In this document: positions 3,975 through 56,623 of the stretch, one piece after another
Layout of the letters: every line of letters begins with the position of its first letter
Position numbering within the stretch: position 1 is the stretch's first letter
Assembly: GCF_003491345.1 (NCBI RefSeq)
Contig: NZ_CP025512.1
Span: forward strand, 1,922,001 to 1,986,000
Direction: 5' to 3'
DNA: 64,000 bases
Origin: Neorhizobium sp. SOG26
GTDB lineage: Bacteria; Pseudomonadota; Alphaproteobacteria; Rhizobiales; Rhizobiaceae
The notes under the pieces: model-generated
What the model was told of the DNA's origin: nothing
Database searches by the model: none
Seen by the model: the letters and a program-made list of their open reading frames with translations, nothing else
Position numbers and translations under genes: made by a program

Positions 3975-4004
3975 AAAAAAGCCGCCTCGGATTTCGGGCG
4001 GCTT
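3975..4004 (-). terminator. Intrinsic terminator of the trp attenuator
   Basis: On the minus strand a stem GCCGCC / GGCGGC, extended by flanking AA-TT pairs, is followed by six T residues (plus-strand 3975-3980). It lies between the Trp leader peptide and the trpE(G) start, which is exactly where ribosome-mediated attenuation requires it. Confidence 0.88.
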
Positions 4005-4034
4005 GTTGTCGTCTTGTCGATTGAACATGACTGG

Positions 4035-4091
4035 TCAAGGCCGCGTGAAGCGTGCCCACCACCAGTTACCAATGTTCATCGAGTTCAGCAT
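4035..4091 (-). CDS. trpL: trp operon leader peptide with three consecutive Trp codons
   Basis: An 18-codon frame reads [18 protein letters not shown] and stops before the attenuator stem. The three TGG codons in a row are the classic tryptophan sensor: when charged tRNA-Trp is plentiful the ribosome moves on and the terminator forms; when it is scarce the ribosome stalls and trpE(G) is transcribed. An internal ATG at 4079 would give the 14-residue form. Neither ATG has a convincing ribosome binding site, and the promoter places transcription start within two bases of 4091, so the longer form is probably translated from a leaderless or nearly leaderless RNA, as known for S. meliloti trpL. Confidence 0.85.
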
Positions 4092-54188: not shown

Positions 54189-55103
54189 TCACGGCACGCC
54201 GTCCTGATGCGGCACCGGAATCTGGCTGATCTTCGGCCGCTGCCAGGGAAACAGGCCGAGCACCAGCGCGCAGCCGAGGATGATGACAGCCGCGCCGACG
54301 AACTGCACCGGCGCCAGCGGCTCCTGCAGGAAAACGGCACCGACAAAAACAGCCACCACCGTCACCACGAATTCAACGCTGATCGCCTTCGTCGCGCCGA
54401 TCGAACCGACCAGCGTGAAATACAGCACATAGGTCGTCGCGCTCATCACGCAGCCGGCGATCAGCAGGTAGACGATGTCCATGAACCCCGGCAGCGCCGG
54501 CACCGGCACCAGTGCGACGAAGGGCGATGCGATGAGGCCGCCGAACAGGAAGGAGCCCATCGTCACCTCCCAGGAGCCGACGTTCTTCAGCCGGTGGCTG
54601 GCGTAATTACTGCCGAAGGCGGCGGAAAAACAGGCGCCCAGCGTCGCGGCACATCCGAGCAGGAATTCACCCGTCAGCGGCACGGCGGGGAACCCGACCA
54701 GCAGCACCATGCCGGCGGCCCCAAGCACGAGACCCAGCAAGCCGCTCGGGCGCATCCGCTCCAGACCCCATACCTGGCTGATGACCATGGAAAACAGCGG
54801 GATGGAGGCAACGATGATTGCGGCCATCGCAGTCCCGATAAGGGGCGTCGCATAGGAAAGGCCGAGCAACTGCCCGGCAACCGTCGTCGCACCGACCACG
54901 AAGAAGGGCCACCAACCGGCGCTGAAATCGAGCCGTCGCCCGGTCAGCTTCGCCAGAAGATACAGCGTGACACAGGCGACGAAGGCGCGGATCGACACCG
55001 CGGCCACCCAGCCGAACGCCGCCACCACCTTCAAAACGATGAGGAAGGAAAGGCCCCAGGCCGTTGCAAGGAAAATGTAGATGGCAAGGTCGCGAGGCTT
55101 CAT
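54189..55103 (-). CDS. EamA/DMT family transporter
   Basis: A 304-residue inner-membrane protein with ten hydrophobic segments in two EamA repeats. The first begins AIYIFLATAWGLSFLIVLKVV; the second contains LLIAGCVMSATTYVLYFTLVGSIGATKAISVEFVVTVVAVFVGAVFLQEPLA. Members export or import small metabolites. The ATG at 55103 is used because the longer frame to 55196 adds a non-hydrophobic extension without a ribosome binding site. It lies inside the xdhB-xdhC gap; purine transport is possible but unsupported. Confidence 0.85.
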   Translation of the reverse strand: MKPRDLAIYIFLATAWGLSFLIVLKVVAAFGWVAAVSIRAFVACVTLYLLAKLTGRRLDFSAGWWPFFVVGATTVAGQLLGLSYATPLIGTAMAAIIVASIPLFSMVISQVWGLERMRPSGLLGLVLGAAGMVLLVGFPAVPLTGEFLLGCAATLGACFSAAFGSNYASHRLKNVGSWEVTMGSFLFGGLIASPFVALVPVPALPGFMDIVYLLIAGCVMSATTYVLYFTLVGSIGATKAISVEFVVTVVAVFVGAVFLQEPLAPVQFVGAAVIILGCALVLGLFPWQRPKISQIPVPHQDGVP

Positions 55104-55225
55104 GGTGGATGAAAGCGCTAGCGAGTTTTGTAGGGAAAGCAAGACTGCCCGGAGCCGAAACAGATCGCCTTGCCAGAAATAGAAGTTCGCTGTCATATCG
55201 GATGAGTGCGATCGGATAAAACGTC

Positions 55226-55597
55226 ATGCCGCATTATGATGTTCGCGATGCCAATCGAGCCCATGCACGACGGATGCGGCGGACGCTTACGCCCGCTGAA
55301 CTCAAGTTCTGGAATGCGGTCCGCGCGCATCGGCTGATGGGCCTGTCCTTCAGGCGGCAGATGCCGATCGCAGGGTACATCGTCGATTTCGCCTGCCCGG
55401 ATCACAAGCTGATCATCGAGATCGATGGCGTTGGCCACTCATTTGACAGACGGATCAGAAGCGATGGCGAAAGGGATCGCCGGTTGGGTTCACTCGGCTG
55501 GCGCGTGGTGCGGTATAGTAATGACGAGATCTACAACCGGCTTGATGATGTGTGTATGCACTTGTTGCGCACGATAGGAATTCATGAGTTTGATTGA
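55226..55597 (+). CDS. DUF559 protein, Vsr-like endonuclease fold
   Basis: A 123-residue protein. RTLTPAELKFWNAVRAHRLMGLSFRRQMPIAGYIVDFACPDHKLIIEIDG carries the Vsr/PD-(D/E)xK pattern: the Asp in VDF and the Glu/Asp in IEIDG. A C-terminal RLGSLGWRVVRYSNDEI is the DUF559 end. Similar single-domain proteins are widespread in Rhizobiales and have no proven role. The stop is nine bases before a 174-bp inverted-repeat element. A link to that element or to DNA repair is only inferred. Confidence 0.85.
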   Translation: MPHYDVRDANRAHARRMRRTLTPAELKFWNAVRAHRLMGLSFRRQMPIAGYIVDFACPDHKLIIEIDGVGHSFDRRIRSDGERDRRLGSLGWRVVRYSNDEIYNRLDDVCMHLLRTIGIHEFD

Positions 55598-55606
55598 TCG
55601 CTGTTA

Positions 55607-55780
55607 CCCCCCTCTGCCCTGCCGGGCATCTCCCCCTCAAGGGGGGAGATCACCAAGCTGCGCCGGCCCTTTTGCAAGTCGGCGCAGAGCCCGCGGCAGT
55701 TGCGGCGGCGATTGGGTCGGGACAGTGCAACGATCAATCTCCCCCCTTGAGGGGGAGATGCCCGGCAGGGCAGAGGGGGG
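55607..55780. repeat. 174-bp element with perfect 44-bp terminal inverted repeats
   Basis: The arms 55607-55650 and 55737-55780 are exact reverse complements over 44 bases. Each arm contains an inner palindrome (ATCTCCCCC / GGGGGAGAT) and the GC-rich CCCTGCCGGGCA motif. The 86-bp centre has no gene. The motif recurs in rhizobial intergenic repeats as I recall them; RIME-like or MITE-like status is not proven. No clear target-site duplication is seen. The right arm ends three bases before the xdhC ATG and supplies a GAGGGGGG ribosome binding site. Confidence 0.85.
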
Positions 55781-55783
55781 TGT

Positions 55784-56623
55784 ATGACACAAACACAATC
55801 CCTCACCGCTTTTATCGCCGCTCATCCCGCAAGCGTGCTGGTCGAGATCGTCCAGGCGAAGGGGTCGACGCCGCGGGAGGCAGGTACCTTCATGCTGGTC
55901 GCGAACGCAGCGATCTGGGGCACGATCGGTGGCGGGCAGTTCGAGTTCATGGCGATCGACAACGCCCGCGCCATGCTTTCGGGCGCCGGCGAGCCGGTGA
56001 TGGACATTCCGCTTGGGCCGGAGATCGGCCAGTGCTGCGGCGGCCGGACGCGGATCAGCTTCACGCCGGTCACCGGACCGGTGGCCGAGCAGTTGACGCG
56101 GCGGCTGGCGGACGAGGCCGAGGAACGGCCGGCTGTGTTCCTGTTCGGCGCCGGGCATGTCGGGCAGGCGCTGGCCGAGGCGCTGGCACCCCTGCCCTTT
56201 GCCGTCACGGTCGTGGAAACGCGCGCCGAGGCGCTGGACGACTTGCCCGACGGCACGGCAAAACAGCTGACGCCTATGCCGGAAGCGGTGGTTTCAAAGA
56301 TCCCGACCAATGGCGCTGTCATCATCCTCACTCACGACCATGCGCTGGATTTCATGATCGCAAGGCAAGCCCTGGCGCGACCCGACCTCGCTTATGTCGG
56401 GATGATCGGTTCCCAGACCAAGCGCGCCACTTTCGCCAACTGGCTGAAGCGCGACGGTGATGGAGAGGCCGAGATGTTGTCGCGGCTGGTGCTGCCGATC
56501 GGCGGCAAGGTGGTCAGGGACAAGCGGCCGGCAGTGATCGCCGCGCTGGTGGCGGCAGAGCTTTTGACGGTCTACGCGCTACGCGAGACGAAAACGTCAG
56601 AACGGCAGGTTCCGCATCGCTGA
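55784..56623 (+). CDS. xdhC: Xanthine dehydrogenase accessory protein
   Basis: A 279-residue XdhC: N-terminal VEIVQAKGSTPREAG with the molybdenum-cofactor-binding region (GTIGGGQFE), then CCGGRT, and a Rossmann unit FGAGHVGQALAEAL at about residue 122. XdhC binds molybdopterin, helps its sulfuration, and inserts it in XdhB. The only ribosome binding site is the G-rich end of the inverted-repeat element. It is downstream of DUF559 and separated from xdhB by about 1.9 kb. Confidence 0.93.
   Translation: MTQTQSLTAFIAAHPASVLVEIVQAKGSTPREAGTFMLVANAAIWGTIGGGQFEFMAIDNARAMLSGAGEPVMDIPLGPEIGQCCGGRTRISFTPVTGPVAEQLTRRLADEAEERPAVFLFGAGHVGQALAEALAPLPFAVTVVETRAEALDDLPDGTAKQLTPMPEAVVSKIPTNGAVIILTHDHALDFMIARQALARPDLAYVGMIGSQTKRATFANWLKRDGDGEAEMLSRLVLPIGGKVVRDKRPAVIAALVAAELLTVYALRETKTSERQVPHR

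Follow-up and report, generated by a model that had tools for sequence, protein, structure and literature searches.

DUF559 nucleases as candidate partner enzymes of adjoining palindromic repeats in Neorhizobium and its relatives

Palindromic repeats occur dispersed in the spacers of many alphaproteobacteria and of other Pseudomonadota, and which enzyme acts on them is the question raised by a locus in Neorhizobium sp. SOG26. Within the 64,000-nucleotide stretch that we analyzed (the window, G000:C1:1922001-1986000, where G000 is the 4.56-Mb SOG26 genome), a 123-residue, single-domain nuclease of the DUF559 family, which Pfam still labels a domain of unknown function, is encoded from an ATG start at 55226..55597 on the plus strand and matches the Pfam profile (PF04480) over residues 10-116 with 112.7 bits against a cut-off of 20.6. 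Eight nucleotides after its stop codon begins a 176-bp arm-loop-arm element (55606-55781): a 45-nt left arm of the family that we call type A (55606..55650, plus strand), an 86-nt doublet loop without strand (55651..55736), and a 45-nt right arm (55737..55781, minus strand) that is its exact reverse complement, the arms being 100% complementary. The original prediction had described a DUF559 gene beside a perfect inverted repeat with palindromes inside its arms; the arrangement is there, with a pair of palindromes within each arm (in the left one, 55616-55627 and 55628-55650), while the sizes given, 44 bp for the arm and 174 bp for the element, were slightly too small. Comparison of DUF559 loci and genomes led us to regard DUF559 as probably the cognate nuclease of the adjoining palindromic repeats, an enzyme that would recognize the arms, cut there and in this way cause arm-loop-arm doublets to be copied or moved.

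A 32-nt core of the arm, with up to three mismatches allowed, occurs in the window only in the two arms and 0 times in each of 100 shuffles, and the folding of the element strand lies at z = -13 relative to 200 shuffles. Across the genome, a 17-nt arm core (up to two mismatches) is present in eight copies at four sites, against one match of the reversed control pattern; the window element is therefore a dispersed repeat. It has terminal inverted repeats of the kind expected of miniature inverted-repeat transposable elements or insertion sequences, has no gathering-level match in Rfam, and contains no GANTC site, a sequence expected of Caulobacter intergenic repeats. G000 has two DUF559 genes, and the second (G000:C1:2030422) also adjoins an arm-loop-arm element, with 47-nt arms that are 98% complementary, an 87-nt loop and an arm family different from that in the window.

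Linkage was measured with an inverted-repeat detector that is blind to DUF559, run on up to 20 kb of DNA around each of the 120 DUF559 matches with the best E-values in this genome and its relatives. The 2.25 Mb scanned yielded 103 inverted repeats, 52 of which lie within 100 bp of a DUF559 domain, 2 at 100-200 bp and none at 200-1000 bp; 43 are further off and 6 enclose the gene. These strict repeats adjoin or enclose 57 of the 120 DUF559 genes and adjoin 39 of 1434 other open reading frames (ORFs) of the same stretches, enclosing repeats having been tallied for DUF559 alone and not for the control ORFs. Of the other 63 loci, the readable ones mostly have a hairpin arm on at least one side. 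A hairpin pattern, drawn up once the flanks of these 120 loci had been read, was present within 230 bp of the domain at 113 of the 120 genes (upstream of 92, downstream of 66 and on both sides of 45) and at 114 of the 1434 control ORFs within 200 bp of the ORF, so that the enrichment which the original prediction had set as its own test was indeed found. Control ORFs of 100-200 amino acids had a strict repeat in 2 and a hairpin in 19 of 406 cases. As the choice of pattern had been informed by these data, additional loci were examined with it. Among named organisms, the best 80 of 295 confirmed loci, from genomes that are partly the same as before, comprised 64 strict and 73 hairpin-positive ones. 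Outside the order, where 20 genomes with one gene each were taken down the E-value list and picked before their flanks were seen, a hairpin, mostly CTCTCCC...GGGAGAG, lay within about 220 bp of the domain at 19 of 20 DUF559 genes. The 120 loci form 23 linked neighborhood groups; a hairpin-flanked gene is present in 22 of them, and a gene with a strict repeat in 10.

The family of the arms goes with the lineage of the nuclease beside them. We compared DUF559 sequences with 330 nt of flank on each side, and 6248 of the 7140 pairs come from different neighborhoods. Similar flanks were found in 27% of such different-neighborhood pairs at 50-60% protein identity (n = 935) and in 3-6% below, as against 84% at 60-70% identity (n = 198), 97% at 70-80% (n = 87) and 6 of 6 above 80%. 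On a DUF559 tree built on 108 columns, many forks of which are unsettled, the arm-family labels change 14 times, where the minimum is 10 and the shuffled mean is 73 (111 of 120 rows, with 9 rows of small families excluded). Kinship contributes to this match. It is from the pairing of nuclease lineage and arm family that we infer recognition of the arm by the protein.

At the level of whole genomes, the hairpin CTCTCCC-N(2-9)-GGGAGAG was counted in 68 genomes, 48 chosen from 108 with DUF559 and 20 from 191 without. It was present in 46 of the 48 and in 5 of the 20 (Fisher p 4e-9, kinship ignored), and a reversed-pattern control gave 0-3 matches per genome. All 20 genomes without DUF559 belong to the same class or are nearer, and in that range the hairpin occurs in 33 of 33 DUF559 genomes. 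Copy number follows the gene as well: among 57 same-genus genomes, the median number of type-A arms was 48 in the 25 with a type-A-clade DUF559 and 15.5 in the 32 without (p 8e-6, kinship ignored). Several of the latter hold another DUF559 clade, some members of which adjoin a type-A arm, and genomes with neither clade (n = 25, regrouped afterwards) have a median of 15. A genome may hold up to 138 type-A arms, scattered at a distance from DUF559, and arms of a second family, type B, occur away from DUF559 in 14 of 21 genomes with the type-B clade and in 12 of 99 others (hand count, kinship ignored). A transposase of the RAYT type (REP-associated tyrosine transposase; REP, repetitive extragenic palindromic) was considered as the mover and was ruled out in G000, which has no match to PF01797 (Y1), and in most of the genus, where 2 of the 57 genomes have a Y1 match. 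In the 68-genome set, the hairpin goes with DUF559 whether or not a Y1 transposase is present: 21 of 22 genomes with DUF559 and without Y1 have it, and 0 of 2 with Y1 and without DUF559.

Close relatives differ by the presence or absence of entire arm-loop-arm doublets, and the junctions are clean in 2 of the ten filled/empty pairs shown. A 186-bp doublet (plus about 5 nt) is present in G001 and missing from the corresponding site of G002, the flanks being 95 and 94% identical and free of target duplication, and G018 compares likewise with G012, with about ten bases replaced. No target-site duplication was seen at the junctions read, which are few and in part have replaced bases. On pSymB of S. 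meliloti, a doublet lies beside mmsB in strains ml47, R28 and AK57 and is missing there from S. meliloti M162 and 2011 and from S. medicae WSM1115; gain of this doublet is likelier than its loss. G047 has 138 type-A cores, many as inverted pairs and often 135 or 142 nt apart, and 10 doublets read in this genome have homologous loops in 13 of 45 pairs, of which 8 are oriented alike and 5 are inverted. Loops are also inverted between G015 and G027 on one side and G001 and G044 on the other, and between G021 and G056. Complementarity at the variable pair of the arm stem holds in 271 of 276 unique arms and involves three types of pair; these compensatory changes point to selection on the hairpin. 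Since doublets are polymorphic as units, and given the co-occurrence and copy numbers, the repeats would appear to be mobilized by DUF559.

Two further type-A sites in G000 (L003:1489-1947 and L010:1488-1853, at G000:C1 ~145 kb and ~2757 kb) have in common a long loop with internal direct repeats as well as similar DNA past the right arm, and this likeness makes them look like a larger duplicated segment. A degraded type-A element (L009:1487-1604, G000:C1:1521233) lies in frame inside uvrB, at ORF residues 491-530, after the UVR motif.

The predicted DUF559 fold matches NGO0050, the homing endonuclease domain of I-Bth0305I, and Vsr, and has conserved acidic residues and a histidine; as modeled, it has the features of both a Vsr-like fold and an EDxHD catalytic domain, of the PD-(D/E)XK type. 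The DUF559 alignment contains invariant residues, and for this reason the gene looks kept. A role in defense was considered and set aside, PADLOC returning weak matches only, the best of them to a homing-endonuclease model (E 0.0013). In the homologue P0101, an N-terminal extension starting MPGRAEGG resembles translated arm sequence, so that some DUF559 frames seem to run through a neighboring arm.

According to the model that we favor, the DUF559 protein would bind the arm and nick or cut there, and the cutting would drive the copying or moving of arm-loop-arm doublets to new intergenic sites. Re-insertion might proceed through a fold-back single strand at the replication fork, a guess prompted by the symmetry of the element and by loops found both ways round. 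The DUF559 gene itself stays at a few conserved sites, here beside xdhC, in a manner that resembles the inheritance of RAYT genes along with their species, and the pair would work like RAYT and REPIN with an unrelated nuclease fold. The computed support consists of linkage, lineage/arm match, co-occurrence, whole-unit doublets, two-way loops, stem compensation and predicted fold.

The neighborhood of the window gene bears on the age of the element. Upstream lies a gene for an EamA-family transporter (54189..55196, minus strand; a landmark only), and 2 nt after the right arm the ATG of an xdhC-like gene (55784..56623, plus strand; Pfam), a landmark common to orthologous loci and outside the system; the immediate neighbors, where alone a cytosine methyltransferase was looked for, are EamA, xdhC and xdh genes. 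An unrelated feature of the window is the small RNA RcsR1 at 3975-4075 on the minus strand (Rfam RF02552, 76.9 bits). The perfect arms had been taken as a sign of recent formation or gene conversion. We reject recent formation: at least 8 relatives have this DUF559-element pair ahead of xdhC, one of them with a broken gene, and its loops have diverged, so the locus is old. The xdhC-site arms are kept alike by selection or conversion.

How the arms are kept alike leads to the best-surviving alternative, namely that DUF559 acts on the repeats without moving them, serving in repair or structure processing as a Vsr-like nuclease that would trim hairpins or cruciforms or correct arm mismatches, keeping arms perfect and preventing breaks. 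The predicted Vsr-like fold is consistent with this, and so is Caulobacter VsrA, a DUF559 protein proposed to be a nuclease of mismatch repair (PMC12907096). At the xdhC site, moreover, nine genomes have arms identical at all 44 of 44 positions and loops that are near random (54% vs 50% shuffled), and two relatives with the element but not that gene have arms that match at 41 of 44 (the site in G023 is masked by N). However, one of the nine is G006, where the DUF559 gene is split over two frames (L330, G006:C68:167038-168162) and the adjoining arms still agree at 44/44. Nor are arms beside DUF559 more perfect than other arms, a candidate property that we therefore discarded: 20 of 60 against 13 of 43 pairs are perfect, with a mean identity of 0.965 in both. 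Spreading accounts better than upkeep for the cognate pairing and for the larger copy numbers where the gene is present, and we consider a pure repair role unlikely.

Less probable still, in our estimate, is that there is no functional link, the repeats gathering in tolerant spacers at DUF559 genes while another enzyme moves them. Arms do occur in genomes without DUF559, and one spacer can take different families: between hutG and hutH on Rhizobium plasmids (L335, L345, L346), Rhizobium sp. N621 carries a doublet of type A, R. etli IE4771 has one from a different family (CCCCTCCCCAACCCCTCCCC), and sp. C104 lacks both. Against such hitch-hiking stand the invariant residues of a gene that looks kept, the fit of arm family to DUF559 lineage even across neighborhoods, the absence of the hairpin from 15 of the 20 examined genomes without DUF559, the rarity of flanking repeats at ORFs of 100-200 amino acids, and the scarcity of Y1 transposases in the genus. 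That the element is a regulatory hairpin, a terminator or attenuator of the DUF559 transcript, is hardly credible despite its very stable fold and the single hairpin just 3' of the gene at several loci, since arms lie upstream more often than downstream (92 and 66 of 120), some enclose the gene, and many are dispersed far from it.

Several observations weigh against DUF559 as a mobilizing nuclease. The hairpin is missing from two of the 48 DUF559 genomes (G129 and G342) and from locus L300, and two Hyphomicrobiales-level relatives without DUF559 carry 34 and 12 hairpins. Type-A arms number 42, 28 and 17 in G033, G025 and G027, which have no DUF559 match, and 13 type-B arms occur in G005, where a type-B DUF559 is missing. 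Arms persisting without the gene fit slow decay after its loss or movement by another DUF559, and they are also expected of a hitch-hiking repeat. Loops of DUF559-adjacent elements in different neighborhoods are homologous in 0 of 60 pairs, the equal perfection of adjacent and other arms counts here too, and the polymorphic doublets in general may be losses as well as gains. Finally, kinship inflates the linkage counts, as the 23 linked neighborhood groups indicate, the genome-level counts ignore kinship and lack a phylogeny correction, and the hairpin pattern was fitted to loci already read.

If DUF559 is indeed the cognate nuclease, a function would be suggested for this domain and a transposition-like activity would be added to the Vsr/EDxHD nucleases; a nuclease with a recognizable repeat family would also make the question of the mobilizer assayable. 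Dispersed palindromes without a known mobilizer have been described before: the CGTC-tagged REPs of alphaproteobacteria, a large superfamily outside the RAYT-linked ones, "apparently lack a dedicated transposase" (PMC3733652). The DUF559 repeats resemble them in this respect and differ in sequence, the window arm having no CGTC end. Elsewhere in G000, a single-domain GIY-YIG nuclease gene (L003:133-663, G000:C1 ~143.7-144.2 kb) has CTCGGGCTTGACCCGAG-type hairpins on both sides. Nine GIY-YIG loci were read, this one and eight (L347-L354) of 33 plasmid records. Matching hairpins closely flank the gene on either side at seven of them, an eighth has a hairpin of another kind on both sides, and the ninth is flanked on a single side. 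A CGTC end is visible at six of the seven (L347, L348, L349, L352, L353 and L354). Because matching CGTC-ended hairpins flank these genes, GIY-YIG nucleases may be the missing partner of the CGTC-tagged REPs. More tentatively than for the pairing itself, and with a confidence that falls a little short of probable, we suggest that DUF559 is the missing enzyme of a phylum-wide class of mobile palindromic DNA, with a chemistry unlike that of any HUH or DDE transposase, and that small single-domain nucleases differing in fold (Y1-HUH, Vsr/DUF559, and GIY-YIG with the CGTC REPs) each own a REP superfamily.

Among the intergenic palindromic repeats of rhizobia are the Rhizobium-specific intergenic mosaic elements (RIMEs); type A may be a RIME, and the repeats described here may in part be known RIME elements. 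The homing endonuclease I-Bth0305I is of the EDxHD group, whose members have an extended DNA-binding region, unlike the window protein, which is a single domain of 123 residues without intron or long DNA-binding extension and which putatively targets the repeat in place of an empty allele. Caulobacter VsrA (CCNA_02930) has a DUF559 domain and a Vsr-like predicted fold, and its proposed mismatch-repair role is tied to a cytosine methyltransferase (PMC12907096); E25, D54, D67 and H71 of the window protein are spaced as VsrA E73, D102, D115 and H119, and a link to repeats is absent from the portion of that text consulted. A search of the open-licence literature in PubMed Central yielded no paper linking DUF559 or Vsr with REP repeats. 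The closest parallel is the REPIN/RAYT system, in which, according to PMC3116915, short, mostly intergenic palindromic repeats form inverted doublets as units and an adjoining nuclease gene matches the repeat class. The DUF559 repeats are likewise short, palindromic, mostly intergenic, dispersed and often inverted doublets (8 cores at 4 sites in G000, 138 in G047), and the lineage of the adjoining nuclease fits the repeat class. They differ in their 45-nt window arms without a GTAG end (no GTAG occurs within 55606-55781) and in an enzyme that is Vsr-like PD-(D/E)XK and not Y1 HUH, G000 having no Y1 transposase. What would be new is a partner enzyme of REPIN-like repeats, as proposed here, from another superfamily than RAYT.
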